Source: Bacteriovoracia bacterium
GTDB lineage: Bacteria > Bdellovibrionota > Bacteriovoracia > Bacteriovoracales > Bacteriovoracaceae
Length of the DNA: 33,993 nucleotides
Direction: 5' to 3'
Assembly (NCBI GenBank): GCA_030426585.1
Contig: JAUHYH010000005.1
Coordinates: forward strand, 1 to 33,993
Both the position numbers and the translations under genes were made by a program. The notes below the pieces were generated by a model that made no database searches, was not told the DNA's origin, and was given only the letters and a program-made list of their open reading frames with translations. Shown here piece by piece: positions 6,096 through 21,973 of the stretch. Positions within the stretch are counted from its first letter, which is position 1; each line of letters opens with the position of its first letter.

Positions 6096-7460
6096 ATGCT
6101 TGAGGGGGGAGTTATTAAGCTGGCAGTTCAGGATCTAGGGAAGGTCCATCTTTTATTCACACTAATTTTTAGCACTTCATTACTTGCAAGGCCTGTTAAA
6201 AGGCATACGACAAACTTTGCTTTTAGGCATAACGATTCGCTTGGTCAGATTGGCGAGATCGACGGTAACAAGTGGTGGGCTGATCTCAATTATTCTTATT
6301 ACTACCGACAGCCTTTCGTTGATCGTGAAGCTAAAGTTGAAATTGAAACTCGCTATAATGATGCAAACTTTCTTCAATACTCCGTTAAAGAACTCAGTAT
6401 GACTCATTTGTGGAATCAGGCAGAGCTTAGTTATGGGCGGATTATGATTGATTGGGTTGAGATTGATAAAGTTTGGGGGTTGGGAAAAATTAATAACCGA
6501 GTGAACTTTGATTTTTTTCGACCAGGGCAAGAGGGGTTAGTTGGGCTTCGTTATAAATACCAAATTTCAAAAAATTTCATGATTGATTTTTATGGCTCAC
6601 CCATATTTGTCCCTGAACTTAATCCTCCTCTAAACATCGATTCAGATAAAGGGACGATTACTTCTAAAAGCCCCTGGGCCCAAGTTCCCGATGCAACCGC
6701 AGATATTAATGGAACGAGCTCAGTTAACCTTTTTTATGATGTAAATATGCCTGATACGGCTGATATTGTTTTTAATGAGTCTTATGGGATCAACTTTCGC
6801 TATTCTCCTAAAGAGGATCTTCACATCACGAGTTTCTTTTTGAGAAAGCCCGAGAATAAACTTTCAAACTCTGCGACGGTTGAATATGTTCCCGCTGCAG
6901 ATCGAGCGGAAGTTAATGTTAACCCGCAACTTTTTTATCATACGCTTTATGGTGCCCAAATTACTTGGGAGCCCAATCGTTCCTGGAAACTCTATGCCAG
7001 TTATTACACTTCAATTCCTGGTGATAAGCCCGCGGATGATACTACGATTATCAACAATGATATTGGGGTTGGTATCGCGATTGAAAAATTCCAAGAACGA
7101 TACTTTGGGACCGGTTTTCATTATACCGGGGAGAACATGCGAGGAGGCTTTAGTTTCCTTAATCGTGTAAGTGATTTTGAAAAGAGCAGTATTTTGACTC
7201 AGATTCCAAGATGGAGTCAGGCCGTGAATGCTGTTTTTGAATATGTTTATAGTCAGACGATACAGGTCTCTTTTGATCTGAAGTATGACACTTTGACCTT
7301 TGATCGATTGTATAGTTTTTCAGTCGTGTATAAGCCAGATTACCAGTGGGATTTCGAGATTGGCGCTGACATTATCGGAACTCCAGACATCGGAGACGGC
7401 TATTGGGTGGTGTTTAGGGACAATGACTCACTCTTTGCCCAGATGAGGTATTTATTTTAG
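6096..7460 (+). CDS. Predicted outer-membrane beta-barrel protein, unknown function
   Basis: A 454-residue exported protein. The signal peptide has hydrophobic core LLFTLIFSTSLLA, with cleavage expected near LLA-RP around residues 31-32. The rest alternates polar and hydrophobic residues in short strands rich in Tyr, Phe and Trp (for example KWWADLNYSYYYRQ, YGAQITWEP, WKLYASYYTS). It ends in RYLF with a terminal Phe, the usual recognition signal for BAM-assembled barrels. I do not recognise a named porin family. The start at 6096 is tentative, as the nearest AGGA is about 15 bases upstream. Only 30 bases separate it from the first lipoprotein gene, so the two are probably cotranscribed and may form a complex at the outer membrane; that last point is inference. 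Confidence 0.75.
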   Translation: MLEGGVIKLAVQDLGKVHLLFTLIFSTSLLARPVKRHTTNFAFRHNDSLGQIGEIDGNKWWADLNYSYYYRQPFVDREAKVEIETRYNDANFLQYSVKELSMTHLWNQAELSYGRIMIDWVEIDKVWGLGKINNRVNFDFFRPGQEGLVGLRYKYQISKNFMIDFYGSPIFVPELNPPLNIDSDKGTITSKSPWAQVPDATADINGTSSVNLFYDVNMPDTADIVFNESYGINFRYSPKEDLHITSFFLRKPENKLSNSATVEYVPAADRAEVNVNPQLFYHTLYGAQITWEPNRSWKLYASYYTSIPGDKPADDTTIINNDIGVGIAIEKFQERYFGTGFHYTGENMRGGFSFLNRVSDFEKSSILTQIPRWSQAVNAVFEYVYSQTIQVSFDLKYDTLTFDRLYSFSVVYKPDYQWDFEIGADIIGTPDIGDGYWVVFRDNDSLFAQMRYLF

Positions 7461-7490
7461 AAGGATGCAGGAAGCATCGATAAGGTAACC

Positions 7491-10022
7491 ATGGAACGGA
7501 TTTTTGTAATTATCTCAATGCTTGCGCTAGTGCTTTCAGGTTGTGGAGACTTGAATGACGGGAAGGCGATGAACCCTGATAGGGTAATTGCGGAACTTCA
7601 AGCGACAAACTGTGAAGTGAATACAAAGAATCTCGAAAAAATTCTCAGCGAACCCATTCCAAACGAAATTAACTGTATCTACGATCAACTTAACGTCTTG
7701 ATGAAGTTGGTCCGTACAGAGAGACCGGAGCTTGGTGGAAAAAATATCACGCGTGCGACATTGGAAACTTTTATTCGGAAGTATGTTCCCAATGCTGTAG
7801 AGGCGCTCGATTATTTCGATATGTTTTTTACACTAAATGGATTTATTTTTGGTGTGGCCGACGACATTCTTATTCAAGAAGACTTCAGACGTCTTAGAGA
7901 TTTTCTTCTTATGATGAATCGTGAAGTTTCTGAAATCTATCCTTATTTAGAGAAACTTGGAGATGATGAAAGAATAGGAATCAAGTTTCATCAAAACATT
8001 AAAGAGCAAAAAATCATTAAAACCTTCGACTATATTGTTAATGGCGCTCGAACTAAGGATGGAGAAGATATTTCCCTACTGGGGCTCCTTGAAGTTCGTC
8101 CCACAACTCAACGAAGTATGGATATCACTCGACTGGTAGGTTTCTTTGAAAATGATGATAACGGTGAAACGATTGAAGAAATTAAAGCATTCGTTTTTCT
8201 AAAGAGAGTGATTTTTGGCGGATCCAAAAATATTATTAACAATACTGAGTTTGCGAACTTCTTGAGAAACCAATTAAAAAGTTTTTTAAGCTCTTTTTAT
8301 GATGTTTACAGACATCCCAATCTTTCTTTTGATAGTGAGTCCAAGCGATATGAACTCTATGGTGAAAACATTGAAAATATTAAGAATCTTATCTTTAATG
8401 CTGGTGAAGAGTCTCTCGTCGATTTCTCTGATCTCTTCAATCTTCTCAATATCTACCGAGAAGACATTTTGGGTAAGTATAGTGAACTCGATTTCCACAC
8501 CCTTGGTTTAGAAGTTTTAAGAATTAAACAAATTCTCATAGGTCAATCGAAAGAAAATCTCAAGGAGATTTTTACTTACCAAGACTTTCAAACTCTTCTT
8601 TTAGAGGGGAGTAAAGTCGTAGAGAGAAGTCGGGTTAACTCAATCATTTTTAATGAAAACAGAGATTACCTTTTAAATGAAAAAGGTAAAATCGTTGATG
8701 ACAGAATGATTAGGACGAGTGTCAATCGTAGTAGCGATGACTTTCTATCCTTTATGAACACAATCAAGAGATATCGCTATTTCAAAGGAAATAATGAACT
8801 GCCTTTTTACGGGGATGACATCCATCGAAACATAGAAACGATTAACTTGATTGGTGCTTTAGATTATGCCGCTGATAAAATTTATCGCTTCTATGAGAAT
8901 GAGTATCCTTGTCATTCTTCGGAAGTGTTTGACGTTTGGAACTTTAAGCCAACTCAAATTCATAGTGATCATCGTTGTAAAGGAACCGAAGATAATAATG
9001 CAACTCTTAATGCGGGACAGTTAATCTTTGTAGTTCAGGAATTTAGAAAAATTCTTTATGAAACAAAAATTATCGGTGAAACGCGTGAAGATAAGGCTGG
9101 GGAAAATGTGATGAACATTCCCGATCTTTTTATGGAGACAGGAAATGATGATGGGTTCTCTGAGCCTACAGAATTTATAGAATTCGTTTTAAGTCTTTTT
9201 GATAGTATGGGTGTTCGTAAGAAGGTGATGCCAATAATACAAGAAAACTGCCCCGTGGTGGATGAACTCCCTGAGTTTGGTGGAGAGCGCTTTTTAACAA
9301 AATGTGTGCGTGATCAATTTTATGGAACTTTATCAAAGAGTTTCGAGGACGAAGGTAAGATTTTTCGTTATTTTGATTCATTGCCTAAATTCGAAGAAAA
9401 ATATTTGGATTGGAAAAGTTACGATGATGCGGATCGAAGACTTCGCCGATACACTCTTTTACTAGAGGGTTTTACCAAAGTTTGTGCTCCTTATGACAAT
9501 ATTCCTTATAGCGAAGCAGATATTATGGGGCTTTATACGAGTATTTTTACCGTAGAGTCTACTTTTAATAAGTTTGATCTCAATGGTGATAATAAGATTG
9601 ATAAACACGAATCAAAAAAGGCCTACCAGCATTTTGAAAGAGGATTGAAATCCATTCTTGATACGATGATAAATGGGATTAAACTGGGGTTCTTGTCTAA
9701 GAACTTCTTTAAGTTTCTCGTTGATAAAAAAAGGGCTCCACTTTCATCGAGTGCATTTTTTAAAGATGTTGGTGATGTGTTGAATGTTCTTTTGATTTAC
9801 AACTTTAAACCTTTCCCTGAAATTGATCGTGAAAAAATCATTACTGTTCTTACGACTCTGCAAGATACCGGTGAGCCAAAGAGGAAAAAGAGACTCGGTG
9901 ATGCCTACGAAGATAAAGAAACTTTCTGTGGTCGGACAAACAATACAACGACTTTTGAGAGAAATGAGTGGAAGTGTTACGTTGAAGGCAAGCAAGATGC
10001 TTGCGAAATCCTTGAACCTTAA
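7491..10022 (+). CDS. Large lipoprotein with EF-hand-like loops (paralogue 1)
   Basis: 843 residues starting at ATG 7491 with AAGG five bases upstream. A lipoprotein signal peptide ends in LVLSGC, so Cys18 would be lipidated. The mature protein is mainly helical and charged. Two loops fit the 12-residue EF-hand calcium-binding pattern: residues 550-561 (N, D, D-G, terminal E; preceded by PDLFM) and 696-707 (DLNGDNKIDKHE, with acidic or Asn ligands at 1, 3, 5 and 9 and Glu at 12). Several more degenerate helix-loop-helix units share a hydrophobic-Gly-loop-Ile-x-x-x-(E/D)-F-x-x-hydrophobic pattern, near 118-139, 241-258 and 349-370. It is a clear paralogue of the next gene, sharing G-C-x-D-x-N-D-G-K-A after the lipobox and many blocks along its length. 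No named family recognised; function unknown. Confidence 0.8.
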   Translation: MERIFVIISMLALVLSGCGDLNDGKAMNPDRVIAELQATNCEVNTKNLEKILSEPIPNEINCIYDQLNVLMKLVRTERPELGGKNITRATLETFIRKYVPNAVEALDYFDMFFTLNGFIFGVADDILIQEDFRRLRDFLLMMNREVSEIYPYLEKLGDDERIGIKFHQNIKEQKIIKTFDYIVNGARTKDGEDISLLGLLEVRPTTQRSMDITRLVGFFENDDNGETIEEIKAFVFLKRVIFGGSKNIINNTEFANFLRNQLKSFLSSFYDVYRHPNLSFDSESKRYELYGENIENIKNLIFNAGEESLVDFSDLFNLLNIYREDILGKYSELDFHTLGLEVLRIKQILIGQSKENLKEIFTYQDFQTLLLEGSKVVERSRVNSIIFNENRDYLLNEKGKIVDDRMIRTSVNRSSDDFLSFMNTIKRYRYFKGNNELPFYGDDIHRNIETINLIGALDYAADKIYRFYENEYPCHSSEVFDVWNFKPTQIHSDHRCKGTEDNNATLNAGQLIFVVQEFRKILYETKIIGETREDKAGENVMNIPDLFMETGNDDGFSEPTEFIEFVLSLFDSMGVRKKVMPIIQENCPVVDELPEFGGERFLTKCVRDQFYGTLSKSFEDEGKIFRYFDSLPKFEEKYLDWKSYDDADRRLRRYTLLLEGFTKVCAPYDNIPYSEADIMGLYTSIFTVESTFNKFDLNGDNKIDKHESKKAYQHFERGLKSILDTMINGIKLGFLSKNFFKFLVDKKRAPLSSSAFFKDVGDVLNVLLIYNFKPFPEIDREKIITVLTTLQDTGEPKRKKRLGDAYEDKETFCGRTNNTTTFERNEWKCYVEGKQDACEILEP

Positions 10023-10034
10023 GTTTAAGGATTT
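10006..10034 (+). other. Long hairpin with the stop codon in its loop
   Basis: AAATCCTTGAAC (10006-10017) can pair with GTTTAAGGATTT (10023-10034) through 12 base pairs, one of them G-T, leaving loop CTTAA. That loop contains the TAA stop of paralogue 1. No U-tract follows directly, so it does not look like an ordinary intrinsic terminator. It could be an RNA-stability or processing element between the paralogous lipoprotein genes. Confidence 0.5.
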
Positions 10035-10184
10035 GAAATGACTCGTTTTGCTATTTTCGCCCTCTCAAAAAAAACTTTAAAATTCCTATAAAAACTACAC
10101 GCTTTTTTCTAGTTATTTCAATAGCTTGGGTCTACTGAAGCGCCCCCTTGAGTGATCCCCTCAAGTGTTGCTAATATACCGCAA

Positions 10185-12911
10185 ATGATGTTTTTAAGGG
10201 GATTCACTACCATTGGCCTATTATGCTGTCTGTTTTTACAGGGGTGTAGTGATATCAATGATGGTAAGGCCAAGGGAACTGGGCAAAATCCAGGTTTTCC
10301 AGAATGTGATGTTAACTCAGCAAACTTTGAACTTCTTTTAGAAAAGCCCATCCGTTCAGATATTGAATGTGCCTATGAGAAAATAAACTGGCTTGTTAAT
10401 AATGTTCGTGAAGAGCAAGAAGAGAAGGGAAATACCAACATCCTCTCTAAAGAAAATCTTAAGCTTTCCATTGAAAATCGTGAGCCTGAAGCGAGAAAAG
10501 TTTTAGAATACTTAGATCTTTTCTTCGACCTCAACCGTTTCGTCCTTGGTTCAGAAGAAGGGCTTATTATTGAAGATGACTTTCGGGCCTTGAGAGATTT
10601 TCTAATTGTGTTTAACGGAGAGTTTTCTAAGATCTATAAGCATTTCGCTGCTGAAACTCGAAATAATGAAACTCTTTATAACATCCATTATAATTCTCTG
10701 AATGAAATCCTTTCAACTCTTCGTTATATTATCCTTGAAGCAAAAACCGCAGACGGAGAAGACATCTCGCTTAAAGGGCTTTTGAGCCGGCACACTGATA
10801 CAAACCGCGAGATTAATCTTTCTGAACTATTCGACTTATTAAAGGTTGAAGAAGAAGGGAAGTCTTGGCTCTTCTTGAAAAAACTTATTATCGGTGGAGA
10901 TTCAAACGTTATCACCAATACTGAGTTCCTTGAGTTCTTAGAAAAAGAAATCGAAGATGAGAGTGGCAAAAAGGTTGGGGTTGAGAATAAAATTCTTAAA
11001 GTGGTCGAGGTTGGATACAATCTCTATCGACAATTAAAGCTTCGTTTTGATACTCCTCAAAAGCGTTATTCTTTTCAAAATGCAAACTACGAACTCGCTA
11101 AAGAGTTAATTTACAGAGAGTGTATAAAGAATTGTAAGAGTTCTGTACTGGAACGGAGAGTTTATAAAGAAGAGTCTCTGGTAAATATGATGGAGATTGC
11201 TCGTTGGATAAATTACTTCTTTGCAGAGGATTTAAAATTCAGTGGCAAAACTATTAATCTTTTGAATTACGATTGGGAAATTGGAAGGATTAAAGAAATT
11301 TTCCTTGGAAATAATTCAAATGAAATTACATATAAAGATGTCGAAAAGTTGTTTGACCTGCTTTCAGAAATAACAGATATCGGAGACGACTTCTCTGTTC
11401 TATTCACTCACAATCAAGACCTTATGCTTGATAAACAGCAGCGAATTACCGAAAAAACTCCGATTAAAAACCTTGTGAAGAAACAAAAGAGTCTCTTGAA
11501 GGACTCAGATAATTATAATCTTTTTAAATATGTTCTTAAAACATTCAGATATTTTGAAGGGCAGAACAGAATACCGATTTATAGTTCTGAATACCATAGA
11601 GATAATAAGAGCATTGTTTTTTATGGACAGTTTGAGCACCTTTTAAGAAAAGTCGCGAAATTCTATGAGCGACAATACCCTTGTGATAAACGAAAAATCT
11701 ATTACATCTATAATTTCGAAACAGGAAAGAAAGAGCCAGAGAAGCTTTTCCACGACTATTATTGTGATGTTGGCTGGCGAAAGAGAAAAGAGGATTATGC
11801 GGGTAATGTCGATTTAGGGCAGCTTTATCTCATTATTCTAGAGTTTAGACAGCTTTTCAGAGAAGCCGGGATTATCGAGAAAGGTAAAGAGGACAGCTCG
11901 GCTGAAAATGCTTTAACAATTCCAGATCTCTTCATTTATTCGGCGAATGATGATGGTAAGATCCAAGTCAGTGAACTTCTTGAATTCTTTTTTGGAATTT
12001 TTAGTGCTGTTGAAATTAAAGACGATATCGTTTCTCAATTGAGAGTAAACTCTGACCAGAATGTGCCTAAGGATGTTTATTTTGCTAAAGCTGATTGTCA
12101 GATTGTGGATATCTATAAAGGAGAGCCTCGGTATGATACGAAGTGTATCCGAGATCATTTCTATTTCTTTTTAAGACAAAAAAATGCAAAACATAATGAT
12201 ACGCATTTTAAGTATTTACCAAACCTAGAGAAGTTCTATGATAAATATCGATCGGTAGATCCCAATGATACTTCACTAACAAAAGAGTTGAGAAGATACA
12301 CTTTATTACTCGAGGGTTATACCAAGTCCTGTGCTTACGATAATGTCCCTTACAGTGAGAGTGATATCATGGCGGTTTATACGGGTATGTTTAGTATTGA
12401 ATCGACAATGGGAAAATTTGATCTCAATGGGGATAATATCCTTAATGAGTATACCAATGATGCTGGCGAGAAAATTAATGAAGTAGAGCTTGCGTACCAG
12501 AACCATTTTAAGCCAGGCCTTTGGGCGATAGTCCAGGATTTCATCAAAGGCGAGGCTGAAGAACAAGACAACTTTAAGCCTTATGATCCCTCCAAGGATC
12601 CTTGGATTGTTAGACAAGTTTTTCAGTATCTTGCAAAACACAAGTCACTACCCGATGAGTTCACCTGGAAAACACTTGTTAAAGGGGTTGGAGTCGTAAC
12701 TGGGGGCTTTCCTTCAATTGGGCGTGATGGGATTGCTAGTATTCTTGTTGTTCTCCAGAATCTAACTGAGCCTAAAAGAAAAATCCGCTACGAGAGAGCT
12801 GGGAAGCGTTATTTCACACCTGAAGAGAAATGTATGAAGGAATTGCCTCCGGGTGAGACAAAACTCATTAGAAAACAGCAAGATTGTCTTGTGGATGGTA
12901 ACTGTTCTTAG
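10185..12911 (+). CDS. Large lipoprotein with EF-hand-like loops (paralogue 2)
   Basis: 908 residues from ATG 10185; an in-frame GTG at 10152 would add 11 residues. I prefer 10185 because MMFLRGFTTIGLLCCLFLQGC is a compact lipoprotein signal with lipobox LQGC (Cys21), but neither start has a clear Shine-Dalgarno. The protein matches paralogue 1 along its length, including N-D-G-K-A after the lipobox, KTADGEDISLKGLL, the TNTEF block, and R-R-Y-T-L-L-L-E-G near the C-terminal third. One EF-hand-like loop (about 11944-11979) keeps N, D, D-G and the terminal Glu. The second (from 12419) begins DLNGDN but is interrupted by roughly 12 inserted residues before its terminal Glu. The C-terminal tail is Cys-bearing, as in paralogue 1. 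The pair probably arose by tandem duplication; function unknown. Confidence 0.8.
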   Translation: MMFLRGFTTIGLLCCLFLQGCSDINDGKAKGTGQNPGFPECDVNSANFELLLEKPIRSDIECAYEKINWLVNNVREEQEEKGNTNILSKENLKLSIENREPEARKVLEYLDLFFDLNRFVLGSEEGLIIEDDFRALRDFLIVFNGEFSKIYKHFAAETRNNETLYNIHYNSLNEILSTLRYIILEAKTADGEDISLKGLLSRHTDTNREINLSELFDLLKVEEEGKSWLFLKKLIIGGDSNVITNTEFLEFLEKEIEDESGKKVGVENKILKVVEVGYNLYRQLKLRFDTPQKRYSFQNANYELAKELIYRECIKNCKSSVLERRVYKEESLVNMMEIARWINYFFAEDLKFSGKTINLLNYDWEIGRIKEIFLGNNSNEITYKDVEKLFDLLSEITDIGDDFSVLFTHNQDLMLDKQQRITEKTPIKNLVKKQKSLLKDSDNYNLFKYVLKTFRYFEGQNRIPIYSSEYHRDNKSIVFYGQFEHLLRKVAKFYERQYPCDKRKIYYIYNFETGKKEPEKLFHDYYCDVGWRKRKEDYAGNVDLGQLYLIILEFRQLFREAGIIEKGKEDSSAENALTIPDLFIYSANDDGKIQVSELLEFFFGIFSAVEIKDDIVSQLRVNSDQNVPKDVYFAKADCQIVDIYKGEPRYDTKCIRDHFYFFLRQKNAKHNDTHFKYLPNLEKFYDKYRSVDPNDTSLTKELRRYTLLLEGYTKSCAYDNVPYSESDIMAVYTGMFSIESTMGKFDLNGDNILNEYTNDAGEKINEVELAYQNHFKPGLWAIVQDFIKGEAEEQDNFKPYDPSKDPWIVRQVFQYLAKHKSLPDEFTWKTLVKGVGVVTGGFPSIGRDGIASILVVLQNLTEPKRKIRYERAGKRYFTPEEKCMKELPPGETKLIRKQQDCLVDGNCS

Positions 12912-12947: not shown

Positions 12948-14073
12948 ATGTCTAGTTCAATAGAGCTTTTAAAAGAGCAATCAAACGTTCTTAAAGAATA
13001 CAAAGAGACTCTCGATAAAATTCGGAGGTCACTTTGACATTGAAAAGAAATCCCAGCGTCTAAAAGAGATTGAAGCTCTCGAAACTGATCCTAGTTTTTG
13101 GGACGATAATAATGCAGCTTCAAAGATTCAAAAAGAAAAGTCTCTGCTCCTTAATGTGATAAATTCCTTTGCTCAACTCAATGACAAGTTTGATGAGTTT
13201 GATATTCTTCAAGAATACGCAAAAGAAGGGGATGAAAGTTCTGCACAAGAAGCACTCATGTTACTTGAAAAGATAAGCCCAGAGCTTGCGGCTCAAGAAC
13301 AGAAAGCTTTTCTCTCTGAAGAAACCGATGGGAATAATGCAATCGTCTCTATCAACGCAGGAGCCGGGGGGACCGAGTCATGTGATTGGGCCTCAATGCT
13401 TCAGCGTATGTTGATGAGATGGGCAGAGAAAAACAAATTTAAAACGAAACTTTATGATTTTCAGGATGGTGATTCAGCTGGAATAAAGTCTTGTACTTTC
13501 TCTGTCGAAGGGGACTTTGCTTACGGGCTTTTGAAATCTGAGACCGGTATTCATCGATTAGTGAGAATTTCACCTTTTGACTCCAATGCAAGAAGGCATA
13601 CTTCTTTTGCGTCTGTTTTTGTTTCTCCTGAAATTGATGATGATATAGAAATTGATATTCCTGATAGTGACATTCGTATTGATGTTTATCGTTCTGGTGG
13701 GGCTGGTGGCCAATCTGTTAATACCACTGACTCTGCGGTACGAATTACTCACAACCCAACAGGGATCGTTGTTACCTGTCAGAATGAACGTTCTCAACAT
13801 CAAAACAAAGCGACAGCTTTAAAAATTCTTCGTTCTCGGCTCTATGAAAAAGCGATGGAAGAGAAAAAAGCGGAACAACAAAAAGTAGAAGACAGTAAAA
13901 AAGAAATTGGCTGGGGATCTCAAATCCGCTCCTATGTTCTTCATCCTTACAAGATGGTTAAAGACCATCGAACCAATGAAGAGATGGGATCCGCTGAACG
14001 AGTATTAGATGGTGATATTGATCCTTTTATCAGGGCGTACCTCCAGTGGAGAACGACAGGGGGGACTGAATGA
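12948..14073 (+). CDS. prfB: Peptide chain release factor 2, programmed +1 frameshift
   Basis: RF2 terminates translation at UGA and UAA. The first 29 codons (12948-13034) end at an in-frame TGA (13035-13037). Skipping T13035 continues in frame from 13036 to 14073, giving a protein of about 374 residues against 365 in Escherichia coli. After the shift come the RF2 N-terminal helix (DIEKKSQRLKEIEALE), the stop-recognition tripeptide SPF in RISPFDSNARRH, and the peptidyl-hydrolysis motif GGQ in RSGGAGGQSVNTTD. The frame from 13156 (GTG) is internal to this gene, not a separate start. The coding end overlaps the lolC-type start by four bases (ATGA), so RF2 abundance could influence the downstream envelope genes through coupling. 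Confidence 0.96.
13024..13038 (+). promoter_or_regulatory. RF2 programmed +1 frameshift site
   Basis: GGAGG at 13024-13028 is a Shine-Dalgarno-like stimulator placed three bases before the slippery codon CTT (13032-13034). The stop TGA followed by C (13035-13038) comes next. This reproduces the CUU-UGA-C arrangement and spacing of the classic prfB recoding site. When RF2 is scarce, the peptidyl-tRNA slips one base forward and RF2 is made, so the gene regulates itself. Confidence 0.96.
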
Positions 14074-15257
14074 ACCTCTCCTTTTGGGCGCTTTTAAAAA
14101 TTTTACTAGAAGGGAAAAACACTCTGGTTTTTCTATTTTTTACAATTCTTGGTCTTTCTTTTTCTATGGGGGTTATCCTTTGTAACTTTGGTTTGATGGA
14201 TGGCTACGAAGTTCTATTGAAAAAAGGATTGAGAAAGAACTCCTCGGATCTAGAAGTTACATCCCAGTTTGGTTTCTTTTCTATTAATAAGAGTTTTAGA
14301 GAGTCTATAGATCAAGAGAAGATAAAAAAGTTTGCAGGTGTTATCAGAACAGAAGGTTTTTTAATTGCGAACCAAAAGAGTAAAGGTGTTCTTGTTAATG
14401 GTATAGATTCCGAAGAATTCAAAACAGTTTCAGCCCTGGACTTCGAGTTTAAAATTGAAGATGGAATTGTTATTGGAACAGCTCTTGCTAAGGAGCTCAA
14501 CGTTCAAGAGGGAGATGATGTCGTTCTCGCTTTTACGAGAGGAAATCAAAACATTGATGACCTGCCATACCTGAATAGTGTTAGAGTCGAAAAAGTTATT
14601 TCTCATGGAATTTATAAAAAAGACTTAAGAGTTGTTTATATGCCGAGAACACAACTTGAAAAATTTGCAAACACAGAAGATCGGGTGAATACAGTATTGA
14701 TTAAACTCGAGGATGTTTCTGAGACTGAGCTTAAAAAAGTTCAAGCTCGTCTTGAAACGAGCCTTGGTTATGGTTTTCTTGTAAAGCCTTATTGGAGTGG
14801 TTTTAAAACGTTAATTGATGCAGTTAAAGTTGAGAAATTTTCAATCACAATTATCCTTCAATTGATTATTGTGATTGGTCTTTTTAATATTGTGGCGTTT
14901 ATTAATTTTAACACAATTAAAAAGTCTCAAGAATTTTTTATGTTAAGGGCCTTAGGAGTAAGTGCTAAAGCGATTCATCAATTTTGGGTTGGGCTAATTA
15001 TTCTCATTTGGTTGAGCTCTTGTGTACTTTCATTACTGATGACTTTTTTTATAGATAATGTTGTCCTCAAGCTTCCCTTCTTAAAGCTTCCAGGAAGTAT
15101 CTATGAGTTAGATTATCTTTCTTTATACCTAAAGCCTTCAGGGGTTTTTATTGTCTTTGCTCTGACTTTTCTTTGGTCTCTTGGAGTGATTCTCTTTATA
15201 CTATGGCGTGAGAGAAGAAAAAGTATTCTTGCGGGATTAAGACAAAGGTTTGCATGA
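14070..15257 (+). CDS. LolC/LolE-family lipoprotein-releasing ABC permease
   Basis: 395 residues with the MacB/FtsX permease layout. One N-terminal membrane helix spans about residues 18-40, with the following MDGYE close to the M-N-G-F-E of LolC/E. A large periplasmic domain covers roughly 45-260, and three C-terminal helices follow. It is directly followed, with ATGA overlap, by an ATPase carrying the Lol-specific motif, which supports a role in extracting outer-membrane lipoproteins from the inner membrane. Only one permease gene is present, so the complex may be a homodimer or the partner may be encoded elsewhere. I therefore leave the C/E assignment open. Confidence 0.85.
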   Translation: MNLSFWALLKILLEGKNTLVFLFFTILGLSFSMGVILCNFGLMDGYEVLLKKGLRKNSSDLEVTSQFGFFSINKSFRESIDQEKIKKFAGVIRTEGFLIANQKSKGVLVNGIDSEEFKTVSALDFEFKIEDGIVIGTALAKELNVQEGDDVVLAFTRGNQNIDDLPYLNSVRVEKVISHGIYKKDLRVVYMPRTQLEKFANTEDRVNTVLIKLEDVSETELKKVQARLETSLGYGFLVKPYWSGFKTLIDAVKVEKFSITIILQLIIVIGLFNIVAFINFNTIKKSQEFFMLRALGVSAKAIHQFWVGLIILIWLSSCVLSLLMTFFIDNVVLKLPFLKLPGSIYELDYLSLYLKPSGVFIVFALTFLWSLGVILFILWRERRKSILAGLRQRFA

Positions 15258-15907
15258 TCCAGGTTATTGACTTAAGAAAATCATACTCAGAAGTAGAGGT
15301 ATTAAAGGGGATTAATCTTCAGCTTGAAGACAAAAGCCAGTCGGTAATCCTAGGAAGTTCAGGCTCTGGTAAGTCGACACTTCTTTACCTGGTTGGAGGG
15401 CTTGAAACTCCAACATCGGGAAAAATTTCAGTTGGGGGAAAGGATTATTCAAAGCTTTCAGATGGAGAACTTTCTGAATTTAGAAACAATCAAATAGGAT
15501 TTGTTTTTCAGTTTCACTTTTTATTATCGAGTTTAACTTGTGAACAAAATATATTGCTCCCTGTTAAAATAGCTGGAAGGAAACAAAAACCATTTATTGA
15601 GCTTACTGAAATGCTGGCCAAATACTTAGGAGTAACTCATTGCCTCAAAAAATACCCCTATCAAATCTCAGGAGGAGAGCAGCAAAGGGTTAATATTATT
15701 AGGGCCTTGATTTTAAAGCCTAAGCTACTACTCTGTGATGAGCCTACTGGAAATCTCGATTCTAAAAACTCTGAGAAAGTAATTGGCCTTCTTAAAGAGC
15801 TTGCGAGTGAGCTTGGCTCTACTTTGGTTGTTGTTACCCATGACCTCAAAATAGCATCACAATTTCCTTACAAAATAACCATTGAAGATGGTCAACTAAT
15901 TCGCTAA
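15254..15907 (+). CDS. lolD: Lipoprotein-releasing system ATP-binding protein LolD
   Basis: 217-residue ABC ATPase with Walker A GSSGSGKST (34-42), Q86 in the stretch FVFQFHFLL, signature ISGGEQQR (138-145), Walker B LLLCDE (158-163) and H-loop VVTHD near 195. The Q-loop region FVFQFHFLL closely matches the LolD-specific FVYQFHHLL motif that contacts LolC/E, which separates it from generic MacB-type ATPases. Its start overlaps the permease stop by four bases. It powers transfer of lipoproteins to LolA for outer-membrane delivery. The two large lipoproteins encoded just upstream are plausible clients. Confidence 0.9.
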   Translation: MIQVIDLRKSYSEVEVLKGINLQLEDKSQSVILGSSGSGKSTLLYLVGGLETPTSGKISVGGKDYSKLSDGELSEFRNNQIGFVFQFHFLLSSLTCEQNILLPVKIAGRKQKPFIELTEMLAKYLGVTHCLKKYPYQISGGEQQRVNIIRALILKPKLLLCDEPTGNLDSKNSEKVIGLLKELASELGSTLVVVTHDLKIASQFPYKITIEDGQLIR

Positions 15908-15942
15908 AATTTTTTGATATCGACGTCTTTGCACAAAGCAGT

Positions 15943-18246
15943 ATGTACATGAAGTTATTGGTATTTTGTGTTTTGATGGGCGCCTATTCCCTGCCGATCT
16001 GGGCGCAAGGAAAAAACGGAATCGGCCCCGAAAAAACACTCTTTAAAATTCAAAAAATTAAGATCGAAGGATTGAGAAAAATAGAGCCGGAGGCCATCCT
16101 CGATAAGATCAAGTCATCACCGGGTCGGCGAATTACGAACTACCAGCTTCGTTCAGACATTAAAAAGATTTATGAAATGCAATTTTTTGAAAGCGTTGAA
16201 GCCCACCAACAAGGTGAGACGCTTGTTTTTAAGATTAAAGAAAAGCCAATCGTAAAAAAGATTTTCATCGAAGGTAATGATGAGATTGGTGATGATGAGC
16301 TGAAGGAACAAATTTCTCTTAAAGAGTTCAATATAATTAATGTTAGCAACCTTAAAAATGACGTTGTTACAATTCAAAAAATGTATGAAGAGAAAGGTTA
16401 TTATCTTTCTCAAGTTGATTACGAAATTAAACCCGTAAATAATGAAACGGTTGTTGTTACTTTTAGTATCAAAGAGTTTGATAAGGTTAAAGTTAAAAAA
16501 GTCACTTTCCTTGGGAACAAAGATCTTCCAGATGATGAACTTAAAAACTTCATGATGACTCAAGAGGATTCTACTTTCTCAGGTCTTTCAGACTCAGGGA
16601 GTTTTAAAGAGTTTAACTTTCAGGCTGATATTGAGCGACTTTCTTATTATTATCGAACCAAAGGTTACTTACAGGTTAACGTCGGGAACCCCGTTATTAC
16701 GGTTTCTGAGGATCGGAAGTGGATTTTCATCACTCTCAATATTACGGAAGGACCTCAATACGAAGTTCGCGAGATTAACTATCGTGGAGATCTCCTTTTT
16801 ACGGAAAGTGAATTAGCTGAGAAAACAAGCCTTAAAACGGGAGAGACCTATTCAGAAGAAAGCCTTCGGAAGGATATTCAAAACCTCACCGAAATGTACC
16901 AAGATCTTGGTTATGCTTTCGTAAACGTTCTTCGAACATTAACTCCTGTTGAGGAAGACGGTAAGAACAAAGTTGATATCAATTTCTCATTTGAGAAAGG
17001 TAAGATTGCCTATTTTGGTAATATCAATGTGCGAGGAAATACTAAGACTCGTGATAAGGTTGTTCGTCGAGAGTTACGAATCCTTGAAGGGATGAAGTTC
17101 TCAGGATCTAAGCTTAGAATCTCAAAAGAAAATGTTAATCGATTAGGATTTTTTGAACCGGGTAGTGTTGTCTTCAATACGGTTTCAAGAAAAAACCGAG
17201 ATAATATTCTTGATGTTAATATCTCTGTAAAAGAACGTCAGACCGGACAAATTTCCATTGGGGCTGGTTACTCGACGGGGACGAGAGGGTTTTTACAAGC
17301 TTCAATCCGTCAGAATAACTTTAGAGGTTTAGGACAGAACTTAAATTTCAACTTAAGCTTTTCTGATGTTGAGCAAAACTACAGCCTTGGTTTAACTGAG
17401 CCTTATTTTAATGATACCCAATTCACCGTTGGAGGGCTTGTTTATCGTAACCGCTCAACGCTTGTTGAAGATTATACCTTTGTAAAAGAAGGAGGAGAGG
17501 TTCGAGTCGGTTATCCGATTTTTGAATACACTCGTCTCTTTGTTACTTACGGTCTTGAAGAAACAGAAGTTAAAAATGCTCCCAACCCATCAATTGTTGA
17601 AGAAGATGAGAATGGGATTGCTTCAGGGGTTGAAGTTTCCCTCGTTACTGATAAAAGAAATAACGCATTTGAGCCGACAGATGGATACTATACTCGGTTT
17701 GCCGTTGAATATGTTGGGCTTGGGTTTGATCAAAGGTGGTTAAGCACTCAAATCGACGGAAGGATCTACCAGCCTATTTGGAATGATCTTATCTTTCGTT
17801 CACGTTTAAGAGTTTCTCAGCTTTTTGAAACATCCGAAAATCGAAATATTCCAAGAACAGAAAAATACCAAATGGGTGGAGCTCGGAACCTAAGAGGTTA
17901 TGTTATTGGTGATATTGGACCTCAAAGAGAGTTTACTGACCCGGCAACATCTCAGCCTCGTCTTTATAATGTTGGTGGACTTCATTCAGTGCTTGGAACG
18001 ATTGAGCTTGAACATCCTCTCGTTAGAGAAGCGGGTCTTAAGTGGGCCGTCTTCTATGACTTTGGGAATGTTTTTGAGGATTATATTGGTAAAGATGGTG
18101 ACTATAGTATGAAACAGGACTGGGGGTTTGGAGTGAGATGGTTCTCTCCAATCGGAGTTCTACGATTTGAGTTTGGTTATCCAATCAATCGTGAAGATGG
18201 AATCTCTGCCAATCAGTTCTTTTTTGATATTGGACAAATATTTTAG
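15943..18246 (+). CDS. bamA: Outer-membrane assembly factor BamA
   Basis: 767-residue Omp85 protein. A signal peptide ends near IWAQ around residue 22. POTRA repeats follow over about residues 30-420 (recurring I-x-G-x-x-x-x x D/E-x-E-L blocks such as VKKVTFLGNKDLPDDEL and YRGDLLFTESEL). A C-terminal 16-strand barrel then carries the lid-lock loop motif LRGY in GGARNLRGYVIGD and a terminal Phe (IGQIF). BamA inserts beta-barrel proteins into the outer membrane. The start could be ATG 15943 or the in-frame ATG 15949; neither has a strong Shine-Dalgarno. It lies 35 bases after lolD and 14 before the Skp-type chaperone gene. Confidence 0.95.
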   Translation: MYMKLLVFCVLMGAYSLPIWAQGKNGIGPEKTLFKIQKIKIEGLRKIEPEAILDKIKSSPGRRITNYQLRSDIKKIYEMQFFESVEAHQQGETLVFKIKEKPIVKKIFIEGNDEIGDDELKEQISLKEFNIINVSNLKNDVVTIQKMYEEKGYYLSQVDYEIKPVNNETVVVTFSIKEFDKVKVKKVTFLGNKDLPDDELKNFMMTQEDSTFSGLSDSGSFKEFNFQADIERLSYYYRTKGYLQVNVGNPVITVSEDRKWIFITLNITEGPQYEVREINYRGDLLFTESELAEKTSLKTGETYSEESLRKDIQNLTEMYQDLGYAFVNVLRTLTPVEEDGKNKVDINFSFEKGKIAYFGNINVRGNTKTRDKVVRRELRILEGMKFSGSKLRISKENVNRLGFFEPGSVVFNTVSRKNRDNILDVNISVKERQTGQISIGAGYSTGTRGFLQASIRQNNFRGLGQNLNFNLSFSDVEQNYSLGLTEPYFNDTQFTVGGLVYRNRSTLVEDYTFVKEGGEVRVGYPIFEYTRLFVTYGLEETEVKNAPNPSIVEEDENGIASGVEVSLVTDKRNNAFEPTDGYYTRFAVEYVGLGFDQRWLSTQIDGRIYQPIWNDLIFRSRLRVSQLFETSENRNIPRTEKYQMGGARNLRGYVIGDIGPQREFTDPATSQPRLYNVGGLHSVLGTIELEHPLVREAGLKWAVFYDFGNVFEDYIGKDGDYSMKQDWGFGVRWFSPIGVLRFEFGYPINREDGISANQFFFDIGQIF

Positions 18247-18260
18247 AATCGGAGGATACG

Positions 18261-18770
18261 ATGAAGAAAATTTTAATAGGAATACTTTTGCTTTCAAGTG
18301 CAGCTGTTTTCTCAGCTGATTCAGTGACAATTGGAGTGATTAATATACAGCAAGTTCTTGACTCAATTAAAGAAGGGAAGAGGGTAACTTCTAAGCTTAA
18401 AAAGTCGTTTGATAACAAGAAAAAGACAATCAAAAAGGAAGAAGAAAAGCTTAAGAAGAAAAGAGATGATCTTATGAAACAAGCTTCCCTTCTAAGCGCT
18501 GAAGCACGAGGGAAGAAAGAACGTGAACTTCAAGCTGATTTCATGAAACTTCAGCAGCAAACGATGGGTTATCAAAAAGAGATTCAGAAGCAAGAAGCTG
18601 AATTAAAAAAGCCAATCCTTGAAAAAATTAAAAAGATCGTTGATCAAGTTTCTCAAAAATCTGGTGTTGATTTCACGGTTGAAGTGAGTGCTTCTCCGGT
18701 TGTTTTTGCAAAATCTAAAAAAGACCTAACTGAAGAAGTCATTAAAATTTACGATTCAAAATATAAGTAG
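18261..18770 (+). CDS. skp: OmpH/Skp-family periplasmic chaperone
   Basis: 169 residues starting at ATG 18261 with GGAGG six bases upstream. A Sec signal peptide MKKILIGILLLSSAAVFSA precedes an OmpH core beginning IGVINIQQVLDSIKEGKR. A long Lys/Glu/Gln-rich coiled-coil arm covers about 45-120, and a short C-terminal core strand follows. Skp trimers hold unfolded outer-membrane proteins in the periplasm for BamA. The order bamA-skp-lpxD-fabZ-lpxA is widely conserved in Gram-negative bacteria. Its stop shares one base with the GTG start of lpxD. Confidence 0.93.
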   Translation: MKKILIGILLLSSAAVFSADSVTIGVINIQQVLDSIKEGKRVTSKLKKSFDNKKKTIKKEEEKLKKKRDDLMKQASLLSAEARGKKERELQADFMKLQQQTMGYQKEIQKQEAELKKPILEKIKKIVDQVSQKSGVDFTVEVSASPVVFAKSKKDLTEEVIKIYDSKYK

Positions 18771-19777
18771 TGAACTTAAAAGACCTCAAATCAATTAAGC
18801 TTGAACAGGGGAAGGCTCTTATGGCCAACTCTGTTTCACTACCGAAGGAGCCCCAGAATGGGTCTCTTTGCTTTGTGAAATCAAAAAGATTTCTAAAAGA
18901 GTTATTTGAGGGTATTGAAAGAAATCAGGCTAAAGACCTTGGCCTGATTGTGCCAGAAGATCTTTGGAGTGCTGAAAAGAAAAATCTTTCCGCTCATAAA
19001 TCATTTACTTGGGTCGCGACAACAAAAAACTTTGATCAAGCCATGATCGATGTATCGAAGGTTTTTTATGATCAGAAGTTTGAAGGTATTCAACATTTAG
19101 TTGATGGGCGACAACTAGGAACTTGTGAAATCGATCCTAGTGCTGAAATTTCTCAAAATGTTTTTCTAGGGGATAATGTAAAGATCGCTGAAGGTGTAAA
19201 GCTTTATCCAGGTTGTGTGGTTGGCTCTAATGTTTCAATTGGAGCAGGAACAATCCTCTTTCCTAATGTCACAATTTATTCCTTTACGAAGATTGGTTCT
19301 CAATGTCGAATTCATTCAGGAGTCGTGATTGGGGGAGATGGTTTTGGTTATAATTTCATTGAAGGTATGCATAAAAAGGTTTGGCATTTTGGTGGAGTTG
19401 AAATTGGAAATGATGTAGAGATTGGAGCTAATACGACAATTGATATGGGGACCTTTACTCCGACAAAAATTGGAGAGGGTTCTAAACTCGATGATCAAGT
19501 TATGATTGCTCACAATGTTCAACTTGGAAGAGGGGTTGTCATTTGCGGGCATACGGGATGTGCCGGAAGTTCAGTCATCGGTGATTTTACTTTTATTAGT
19601 GGAAATTGCTCTATTTCAAATGACACAAAGGTTGGTTCTGGTTGTCAGGTTGCAGGAGCAACGATTGTGACCAAGGACATTCCTGATGGGCAAACAGTTG
19701 CGGGTTATCCTGCCACTGATATAAAAGAATGGCGCCGAAGTATTATTCACTTTCAAAAACAAGGCCAAAGGTCGTAG
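18770..19777 (+). CDS. lpxD: UDP-3-O-(3-hydroxyacyl)glucosamine N-acyltransferase LpxD
   Basis: 335 residues from a GTG start at 18770 that overlaps the last base of the preceding stop. The N-terminal uridine-binding domain covers about 1-100. A left-handed beta-helix of hexapeptide repeats spans about 120-290, including VVIGGDGFGYNF and GANTTIDMG. The catalytic histidine is His248 in MIAHNV, matching His239 of the Escherichia coli enzyme. A short C-terminal helix is typical. The enzyme adds the second hydroxyacyl chain during lipid A synthesis. Where the canonical enzyme has IDRG, this one has IDMG, a small deviation near the active groove. Confidence 0.95.
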   Translation: MNLKDLKSIKLEQGKALMANSVSLPKEPQNGSLCFVKSKRFLKELFEGIERNQAKDLGLIVPEDLWSAEKKNLSAHKSFTWVATTKNFDQAMIDVSKVFYDQKFEGIQHLVDGRQLGTCEIDPSAEISQNVFLGDNVKIAEGVKLYPGCVVGSNVSIGAGTILFPNVTIYSFTKIGSQCRIHSGVVIGGDGFGYNFIEGMHKKVWHFGGVEIGNDVEIGANTTIDMGTFTPTKIGEGSKLDDQVMIAHNVQLGRGVVICGHTGCAGSSVIGDFTFISGNCSISNDTKVGSGCQVAGATIVTKDIPDGQTVAGYPATDIKEWRRSIIHFQKQGQRS

Positions 19778-20284
19778 ATGCTCTATAATAAAGCCGCTGT
19801 CCTCGATTTTCTTCCCCATCGACCTCCCTTTCTTTTTGTGGACTCTATTGAAGAGGTCCACCTAACAGAGGGTTGGGGGGAATCAATTTCTAATATAAAT
19901 TCGAAGAGTTTTGTTGGTTCGTATGCAGTCGGTGACTTTAAAATACGGCCTGATCTTGAAATTTTAAAAGGCCATTTCCCGGGGAATCCAATTTTACCAG
20001 GCGTGGTACAAGTGGAAATGGGTGCTCAGGTTTGCCCTTTTATTTTTATGAATGCTTTTGAAGATCAAATGTCTGACTATGTTTTAGATGTCTCTCTACT
20101 TGGTGTAGATAAGACTCGCTTTCGAAAACCAATTGTACCTGGAATGAATATTCGTTTTCGGGGGAAACTAATCAAAACTCGAGGGCCTTATATGACTTTT
20201 GAGTGTGAGATGGAATGTGCAGGAGAGATCGTTTCCTCTTCTGAAGTTTTTGCATTGTTAAATTTTAATAAGAAAGAGGGGTAA
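19778..20284 (+). CDS. fabZ: 3-hydroxyacyl-ACP dehydratase FabZ
   Basis: 168 residues, hot-dog fold, starting directly after the lpxD stop with AAAGG suitably upstream. The active site is His66 in GHFPGNPILPG with Glu80 in QVEMGAQ. The N-terminal stretch DFLPHRPPFLFVD is diagnostic. It is about 17 residues longer than the Escherichia coli protein, with the extra residues around 35-60. FabZ dehydrates 3-hydroxyacyl-ACP and so competes with LpxA and LpxD for the same hydroxyacyl-ACP pool, which is the usual explanation for its place in the lpx operon. Confidence 0.95.
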   Translation: MLYNKAAVLDFLPHRPPFLFVDSIEEVHLTEGWGESISNINSKSFVGSYAVGDFKIRPDLEILKGHFPGNPILPGVVQVEMGAQVCPFIFMNAFEDQMSDYVLDVSLLGVDKTRFRKPIVPGMNIRFRGKLIKTRGPYMTFECEMECAGEIVSSSEVFALLNFNKKEG

Positions 20285-20287
20285 TTC

Positions 20288-21079
20288 ATGGCGAATAATA
20301 TTCATACAAGTGCTGTCGTTGAGTCAGGAGCTGAGATTGCTGATAACGTTCAAGTTGGTGCTTTCTGTTATATTGGTCCAAAGGTAAAAATTGGAGAAGG
20401 TACTATTTTACTCCCTCATACTGTAGTTGATGGGAATACAACAATTGGAAAAAATAATCATTTTTCACCTCATTGTAGTATTGGTTCTTATCCTCAAGAT
20501 ATTTCCTATAAAGGAGAAGATACCAAGGTTATTATTGGTGACAATAATATCTTCAGAGAGTTTGTTTCTGTTAACAAAGGAACTCTTAAACAAGACCAAG
20601 TAACAATTATTGGAAATGATAATATGTTTATGGCCTATGCTCATATTGGTCACGATGTTGTTATTGAAAATAGAGTAAGGCTGGTGAACGCTAGTAACCT
20701 TGGTGGGCACGTTCGAATTGGAGAGGGAGCAATTTTAAGTGGAGCGACCAACGTGTCTCAATTTGTAACAGTTGGTAAAGGTGCTTTTATAGGTGGTGAA
20801 ACGGCTATTGATAGAGATATCCCATGCTATTGTACGGCGCTTGGGAACCGAGCTCGGTTAAAAGGTGTTAATATTATAGGTTTAAAGAGACAAGGGTATG
20901 ATAAAACAGTAATTTCAGAGGTCGTGGATTTCTATCGAAGTATGGAAGCCTCAGCCTTGTCACCACGTTCTTTTGTTGATTCTCAGGAAACAATTGATGA
21001 ATATGGAGGCAACCCTATTATTGATGAGATGATGAAGTTTATTCGTGAGAGTCGAATTGGTATCCCTTCTTTTATGTAG
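20288..21079 (+). CDS. lpxA: UDP-GlcNAc (or UDP-GlcNAc3N) O/N-acyltransferase LpxA
   Basis: 263 residues of hexapeptide-repeat beta-helix with an alpha-helical C-terminus, the first committed enzyme of lipid A synthesis. It aligns with the Escherichia coli enzyme without gaps at a constant offset of three. The general base is His122 (equivalent to His125), and His141 (His144) and Arg201 (Arg204) are kept. The residues equivalent to Lys76 and His160 are Ser73 (QDISYKGE) and Ser157 (NVSQFV). Both positions contribute to substrate binding in the model enzyme, so substrate preference may differ. The adjacent Gfo/Idh gene makes a 3-amino sugar nucleotide acceptor a reasonable hypothesis. Confidence 0.94.
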   Translation: MANNIHTSAVVESGAEIADNVQVGAFCYIGPKVKIGEGTILLPHTVVDGNTTIGKNNHFSPHCSIGSYPQDISYKGEDTKVIIGDNNIFREFVSVNKGTLKQDQVTIIGNDNMFMAYAHIGHDVVIENRVRLVNASNLGGHVRIGEGAILSGATNVSQFVTVGKGAFIGGETAIDRDIPCYCTALGNRARLKGVNIIGLKRQGYDKTVISEVVDFYRSMEASALSPRSFVDSQETIDEYGGNPIIDEMMKFIRESRIGIPSFM

Positions 21080-21085
21080 TTAATT

Positions 21086-21973
21086 ATGAATAAAGTTAAA
21101 GTCGCTCTTATTGGTTATGGTCACCTAGGTAAATGGCATGCTCAAAAAGCTGAAGCTCTCAACTTTTCAGAGCTTGTTGGAATTGCCGATTTAAGTGATG
21201 AGCAATTAAGCATGGCCAAAGAAAATCATCCAGACGTCATTCTCACTAAAGACTTTAAAGAGCTTTATTCAAAAGTGGATGCTTTTGTTATTGTGACAAC
21301 GACATCAAGTCATCACTTTCTTTTAAAAGAAGTTGTTCAAGCGGGAAAGCATGTTTTTTGCGAAAAGCCGCTTTGCCAGACCTATGAGCAGGCAAAAGAA
21401 ATCCTCGGGATGAAGCAAGATAAAGTCTATATGACGGGGCATAGTGAAAGATGTCACGAAGTATGGCAAAGTAAAATGTTTAATTTAGATGGCGCCTTAG
21501 ATGTACACTTTAAAAGAGTCACCCCTTTTAAAGGAAGGGCAGCTGATGTTGATGTGCTCCAAGATCTTACTATTCACGATATTGATCTCGCCACGTATCT
21601 TCTCAATGAAGATATTGAGTCAATTGTAGTAGAAAAGATGGAAAAGAGTGTTACTGAATATACTGATACTCTTGAGGCCGTTGCGACAATGCAATCGGGT
21701 CGCAAGGTTAGATTTACGACGGATCGAAATCATGATCATGAAGAGCGTTCTGTTCATATTAGAGGGGCCCACGATATTTATATTGATCTTATGAATACGA
21801 AAATAAGAGTTGATGGAGAGGAAAGTGATTATAATAAAAGAGATCACCTCTTGATTGAACATGAATCTTTTTACAAAGCAATATTGACCGGGAGTGATCC
21901 TCTCACAAGCTTTGAAGAAGGTGCTCAAGCTCTTAAGAATTTAGAAATGATCTATAAGGCTTCTCAAAAATGA
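21086..21973 (+). CDS. Gfo/Idh/MocA-family oxidoreductase in lipid A operon (GnnA-like candidate)
   Basis: 295 residues. The N-terminal Rossmann fold has the dinucleotide motif GYGHLG (10-15), the family E-K-P motif at 93-95 (FCEKPL), and the active-site block H164-D-I-D167 in LTIHDIDLATYL. The gene lies six bases after lpxA and overlaps lpxB by four bases, so it belongs to the lipid A operon. In Acidithiobacillus and Leptospira, GnnA of this family oxidises UDP-GlcNAc at C3 so that the aminotransferase GnnB can make UDP-GlcNAc3N for LpxA. Bdellovibrio lipid A is reported to contain 2,3-diamino-glucose. A GnnA role is therefore plausible but unproven, and no GnnB-type aminotransferase is in the window. 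Confidence 0.85.
   Translation: MNKVKVALIGYGHLGKWHAQKAEALNFSELVGIADLSDEQLSMAKENHPDVILTKDFKELYSKVDAFVIVTTTSSHHFLLKEVVQAGKHVFCEKPLCQTYEQAKEILGMKQDKVYMTGHSERCHEVWQSKMFNLDGALDVHFKRVTPFKGRAADVDVLQDLTIHDIDLATYLLNEDIESIVVEKMEKSVTEYTDTLEAVATMQSGRKVRFTTDRNHDHEERSVHIRGAHDIYIDLMNTKIRVDGEESDYNKRDHLLIEHESFYKAILTGSDPLTSFEEGAQALKNLEMIYKASQK

Follow-up and report, generated by a model that had tools for sequence, protein, structure and literature searches.

A predicted outer-membrane β-barrel and a neighbouring EF-hand-like lipoprotein as a candidate two-gene envelope module in Bdellovibrionota

Positions 1 to 33,993 of contig JAUHYH010000005.1 from a Bacteriovoracia bacterium (assembly GCA_030426585.1), a stretch referred to here in its entirety as the window, which is contig 54 in a draft genome of 2.65 Mb, contain a gene for a predicted outer-membrane β-barrel (P0001) followed by genes for two large lipoproteins (P0002 and P0003). 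This arrangement raises the question as to which of these genes belong together, and what their products may do in the cell envelope. A preliminary description, made from the sequence alone, had presented all three as an uncharacterized, seemingly lineage-specific envelope module; the present analysis points to a module of two genes, the barrel and one lipoprotein, which is kept across most of the phylum Bdellovibrionota.

The succession of a barrel and two closely spaced lipoproteins on the same (+) strand was confirmed by the open reading frames (ORFs), the lipoboxes and the barrel model, with intergenic gaps of 30 nucleotides (nt) between P0001 and P0002 and of 129 nt between P0002 and the third ORF, when the latter is read in its longest form (GTG 10152 to 12911). 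The start of P0003 is probably ATG 10188 rather than this GTG, since a compact signal peptide and lipobox then result. P0002 and P0003 are the only copies of this lipoprotein found in the draft genome searched, and were shown to be paralogous from end to end (37% identity over residues 5–834, E=3e-117), in agreement with the shared blocks described previously.

Joint distribution and divergence of the two genes

In a panel of 192 genomes from the phylum, many of which are drafts, both genes were identified in 142 and neither in 47, with the barrel alone present in three and the lipoprotein alone in none. Two of the three barrel-only genomes are 71–75% complete, and the third contains a weak barrel match. 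The label 'lineage-specific' was therefore abandoned, as the carriers include Bdellovibrio. Seven genera of Bacteriovoracaceae are devoid of both genes. Two of these genera are represented by 5.6 Mb genomes (G019 and G025, 94–95% complete), which would be suited non-carriers for a comparison of lifestyle. Among GTDB records, the best barrel matches were to Bacteriovoracaceae draft genomes. A pattern scan derived from the barrel alignment returned 50 matches, all 50 of which carry Bdellovibrio/Bacteriovorax-type, Oligoflexia or unclassified Proteobacteria names; relatives beyond Bdellovibrionota were covered by this one barrel scan, and absence there applies to close relatives only.

Iterated profile searches located a lipoprotein gene beside the barrel gene in almost every locus. 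Among 48 named loci in which the barrel gene is complete, it lies directly downstream in 47; in the sole exception (L123), the contig stops 0.2 kb past the barrel. Such near-constant adjacency suggests that the two products form a dedicated envelope complex. In the Bacteriovoracaceae nearest to the window, the genes are co-directional; in a second group of this family, they are divergent and separated by 106–373 nt, with the pair intact. In 30 of the 67 pairs that share one orientation, the ORFs overlap by 11 nt; such pairs range from Bacteriovoracaceae to Bdellovibrio, and this recurrence is consistent with translational coupling.

The distance matrices of the barrels and lipoproteins were strongly correlated (r=0.94 over 83 pairs, compared with ≤0.18 for shuffled matrices), and partial correlations of 0.73–0.86 persisted once the distances of YbeY, PrfB, LolC, MazG or BamA were removed. 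Where a genome holds two pairs, each type of barrel is accompanied by its own type of lipoprotein. Synteny alone, by which the two proteins would be neighbours without acting together, might be suspected from the likewise conserved genes around the pair in Bacteriovoracaceae, where mazG and ybeY (45 loci each) are located upstream, and prfB (37 loci) and lolC (34 loci) downstream. However, only the barrel and the lipoprotein stay together phylum-wide, through the divergent layout and in duplicated copies, and their joint absence and the persisting partial correlation also argue against this explanation, which is considered highly improbable. Neighbourhood comparison identified no third gene common to the loci across lineages. 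Judged from these genome comparisons, the barrel and lipoprotein genes are neighbours, are found or missing as a pair and have diverged in concert, and the unit is a two-gene module of the barrel and one lipoprotein.

A tandem second lipoprotein was identified in at least 8 of 47 named loci; this count is a minimum, as several contigs stop too soon after the pair to reveal one. Phylogenetic analysis revealed at least four independent tandem duplications, including that of the window itself (support 0.94), and P0003 is accordingly assigned, on its sequence, to a local tandem duplication. Of the previously proposed co-occurrence of three genes, the part concerning the barrel and one lipoprotein was thus upheld, and the part concerning the second lipoprotein, and with it the three-gene module, was not.

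Predicted structures and relatives of the two proteins

The AlphaFold2 single-chain model of P0001 (alignment of 43 sequences) displayed a barrel of about 20 strands without a plug domain, which begins directly after the signal peptide (predicted local distance difference test score, pLDDT, 88.2; predicted template modelling score, pTM, 0.83). Its antiparallel strands and C-terminal aromatic residue, a Phe (F454) that is nearly invariant in the family, are those of an outer-membrane β-barrel. Foldseek comparison of the model returned porins (E about 5e-10), Occ channels, chitoporin and AlgE. No named family was matched by P0001 and 36 related barrels in Pfam and NCBIfam, and the barrel profile found no credible homologue among Protein Data Bank (PDB) sequences.

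The resemblance to AlgE raises the possibility of an export complex of the AlgE-AlgK kind, known from alginate export in Pseudomonas, in which a polysaccharide or lipid would be secreted by the barrel, with the helical lipoprotein as its periplasmic scaffold. AlgE2 and AlgE gave the highest query-normalized template modelling (TM) scores among the matches listed (0.46–0.47), level with chitoporin (0.46); the pairing of a large barrel with a sizeable helical lipoprotein follows the same layout, and in Bdellovibrio-type genomes, glycosyltransferase or KdtA-like genes (names recognized from sequence) occur close to some copies. Conversely, the alginate-export Pfam family matched none of 36 barrels, no sequence relation to this system or alginate genes were found for the window pair, no alginate context, synthase or glycosyltransferase neighbour is common to the loci across lineages, and the lipoprotein is EF-hand-like, unlike the tetratricopeptide repeat (TPR) partner of AlgE. 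Export of this kind is therefore regarded as unlikely.

Other known barrels were compared in a similar manner. SusC-SusD and RagA-RagB likewise represent obligate barrel-lipoprotein partnerships encoded side by side, but the window barrel is about half the size, its lipoprotein is unrelated, and no Pfam match to plug or TonB-dependent receptor domains was obtained in the 36 barrels. Likeness to the capsule-assembly barrel Wzi (PF14052) was limited to a weak partial match in one of the 36 (about 75 profile positions; 23.7 bits against a cut-off of 30.1 bits); when the Wzi family was searched back against the relatives, P0001 was not matched, and membership was rejected. Slam, a Slam barrel with a periplasmic TPR region, was also rejected, as no Pfam match was obtained and the signal peptide of P0001 leads straight into the barrel. 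PopA (Bd0427), a pentameric porin-like major outer-membrane protein of Bdellovibrio, resembles P0001 as a porin-like barrel from the same predators, but in the cited part of the source no lipoprotein partner is mentioned for it (PMC12228718). The PDB chains to which the barrel profile showed no convincing match would include PopA, if it is represented in the set searched.

Both P0002 and P0003 carry a signal peptide and lipobox cysteine typical of bacterial lipoproteins, as read from sequence and alignment (Table 1). The AlphaFold2 single-chain model of P0002 (alignment of 51 sequences; pLDDT 86.8, pTM 0.84) was all-helical, with about 11 EF-hand-like helix-loop-helix units, counted from secondary structure, as anticipated in the preliminary description; short strands occur in the loops of several units. 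Profile self-comparison revealed homology among three N-terminal units (S2–S3, probability 95.8, E=7e-9; S1–S2, E=1e-4), and inspection suggested that this repeat type is multiplied in longer homologues. Lipoprotein length ranges from about 720 to 1350 amino acids (aa) across the family, the longest being 1346 aa. The lipoproteins at L078, L081, L083, L090 and L179 comprise 1160–1346 aa with apparent extra EF-like repeat units.

Table 1. Positions in the window of the barrel and lipoprotein genes and of features within them
Feature	Position	Strand	Description or basis
Barrel gene P0001	6096..7460	+	454 aa; signal peptide, then predicted β-barrel
First lipoprotein gene P0002	7491..10022	+	843 aa; all-helical, EF-hand-like repeats
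Second lipoprotein gene P0003	10188..12911	+	907 aa from ATG 10188 (probable start); tandem paralogue of P0002
Lipobox cysteine C18 of P0002 (LSGC)	7542..7544	+	Invariant in 51-sequence family alignment
Lipobox cysteine of P0003 (LQGC)	10245..10247	+	Sequence inspection
Units S1, S2 and S3 of P0002, about 100 aa each, residues 45–395	7623..8675	+	Profile self-comparison
EF-hand-like loop of P0002, residues 550–561 (TGNDDGFSEPTE)	9138..9173	+	Family alignment
Canonical EF-hand loop of P0002, residues 696–707 (DLNGDNKIDKHE)	9576..9611	+	Pfam match and alignment
EF-hand-like stretch of P0003, residues 586–600, within SANDDGKIQVSE	11943..11987	+	Pfam scan

The EF-hand-type loops noted previously proved to be real in at least two places of P0002. 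The loop at residues 696–707, part of an EF pair at residues 640–730, has the 12-residue EF-hand pattern, with acidic or amide ligands at positions 1, 3 and 5 and Glu/Asp at position 12; among 51 homologues, D occupies position 1 in 49 and E or D position 12 in all. At residues 550–561, position 12 is E in 51 of 51 homologues, with Q the commonest residue at position 1 (39 of 51), where T also occurs. As the EF-hand_5 match to residues 689–707 (E=2.9e-5, 23.8 bits) scored under the curated Pfam cut-off of 25.9, P0002 is termed EF-hand-like and is not filed as an EF-hand member. In P0003, an insertion interrupts the second loop. Four cysteines of the lipoprotein alignment are invariant (C41, C62, C587 and C665) and two nearly so (C605 and C838), which suggests that they form disulphides.

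In line with the absence of a named family noted previously, P0002 and P0003 were assigned to none by Pfam and NCBIfam, and neither protein of the pair matched a characterized family in profile searches. Scans of 39 lipoproteins from relatives gave EF-hand matches, with up to 10 of the 39 reached at E≤0.05 by one EF-hand model; against PDB sequences, the lipoprotein profile recovered only EF-hand loops, near E=0.03, and a single-protein search with P0002 of an 84,980-species collection returned no match. Local Foldseek matches of P0002 were to penta-EF-hand proteins, including the calpain small subunit and sorcin. The window lipoproteins share local structure and conserved loop residues with these proteins and with Pfam EF-hand families, but differ from the former in being far longer, secreted and lipid-anchored, with mostly degenerate loops. 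Taken together, family and profile searches support the designation as an uncharacterized envelope module of a barrel and EF-hand-like lipoproteins.

Proposed mode of action

The arrangement considered probable is an obligate outer-membrane complex between a porin/AlgE-like barrel and a Ca2+-stabilized helical lipoprotein scaffold, of which the complex itself, the calcium and the cargo are presumed. The large barrel would sit in the outer membrane, and the lipid-anchored superhelix of EF-hand-like pairs would dock onto it. Ca2+ held by the one or two EF loops that are intact, along with the conserved cysteines, may rigidify the lipoprotein, which could act as scaffold or lid of a barrel that moves some substrate across the outer membrane. 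Duplicated or orphan lipoproteins would represent alternative partners of the same barrel. A more far-reaching version, an undescribed phylum-wide two-component system whose porin-like barrel is gated or capped by the calcium-loaded EF-hand superhelix of the lipoprotein, with repeat number and lipoprotein duplication tuning specificity, is put forward as a tentative possibility. The responsiveness of the module to calcium that had been suggested is plausible.

Several observations weigh against such a complex. The best Foldseek TM-scores of the barrel were below 0.55 (at most about 0.54), and its likeness to porins and AlgE therefore applies at the fold level only. Foldseek searches with the P0002 model yielded no significant full-length structural match. 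Upon inspection, most of the other EF loops of P0002 are degenerate and lack canonical ligands, and calcium may therefore be structural or absent. Finally, orphan lipoproteins without a nearby barrel occur at L068, L071, L077, L080 and L097, and L075 contains a barrel without a nearby lipoprotein. Duplicates and orphans would fit a situation in which several lipoproteins use one barrel. A further full-length orphan, at L085, is situated at a contig end. The orphans at L068 and L071 have conserved neighbours in common, i.e. a 92-aa protein, a Cys-rich protein and a 730-aa protein.

Genomic surroundings and Bdellovibrio copies

The preliminary description had linked the module functionally to the adjacent Lol/Bam genes, whose products would export it. 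In the window, prfB separates the pair from these genes, and the surroundings of the pair differ in Bdellovibrio and the remaining families. As a conserved feature of Bacteriovoracaceae that other groups lack, this neighbourhood is of little help in deducing function; from gene order, the placement is old synteny and carries no evidence on the export route. The prfB gene (12948–14073) exhibits a classical programmed +1 frameshift (AGG TCA CTT TGA C at 13026–13038), with an in-frame TGA stop at 13035–13037 after which reading resumes in the +1 frame; in the ORF list, the only start given for the gene is a later one, GTG 13156. The region from 14070 to 21973 encodes a LolC/E-like permease, an ORF in the LolD position, BamA, a Skp-like protein, an LpxD-like hexapeptide protein and small ORFs, and resembles a biogenesis cluster for lipoproteins, outer-membrane proteins and lipopolysaccharide, with Pfam support for the permease, BamA and the hexapeptide protein. 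The lipopolysaccharide genes nearby (lpx on the window side, KdtA-like in Bdellovibrio) were set aside as a clue, as they are not common across lineages.

Three Bdellovibrio genomes are taken here to be those of B. bacteriovorus HD100, B. bacteriovorus Tiberius and B. exovorus JSS. The first of these, presumed HD100, holds two barrel-lipoprotein pairs, one of which (L163, 14064–18545) is separated by 2.7 kb from the gliding cluster Bd2368–2377, which opens with a predicted VWA-type lipoprotein. This cluster is reported to be raised at the prey-exit stage (PMC12546842). Gene counting from two anchors, the THIF family gene Bd2354 and Bd2368 at the start of the gliding cluster (PMC12546842), which both agreed, suggests that this pair corresponds to Bd2364 (lipoprotein) and Bd2365 (barrel). 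A full-text search of one literature collection found no mention of Bd2363–Bd2367; supplementary proteome and transposon tables were outside its scope and may hold expression or fitness data.

The proximity of this HD100 pair to gliding genes (PMC12546842) would accord with a surface adhesion or motility platform for prey contact or gliding, in which the barrel anchors an exposed Ca2+-dependent lipoprotein. The lipoproteins are variable in length, repeatedly duplicated and fast-diverging, with a mean identity of 0.31–0.34, compared with 0.42–0.45 for the barrels and 0.64 for BamA, and they diverge faster than the other neighbourhood genes. However, the gliding neighbourhood is confined to three closely related Bdellovibrio genomes, and was set aside as a functional clue for that reason, and family scans of the lipoproteins detected no adhesin domain. 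Such a platform is thus judged to have a low probability, similar to that of AlgE-AlgK-like export; the likelihoods given to these two alternatives and to the scaffolded outer-membrane complex overlap in part. Membership of the Myxococcus/Bdellovibrio gliding outer-membrane complex was rejected, as the pair is not within an agl/glt cluster and is near one in those three genomes only. The role in prey contact raised in the preliminary description remains speculation.

A two-gene module that carries no family name, and that is preserved throughout most of this phylum, itself known for bacterial predators, represents a clear gap in the knowledge of their envelope. With two copies in the model predator B. 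bacteriovorus HD100, the module is amenable to gene removal and, if calcium matters to it, could bear on the use of calcium in predator culture buffers.

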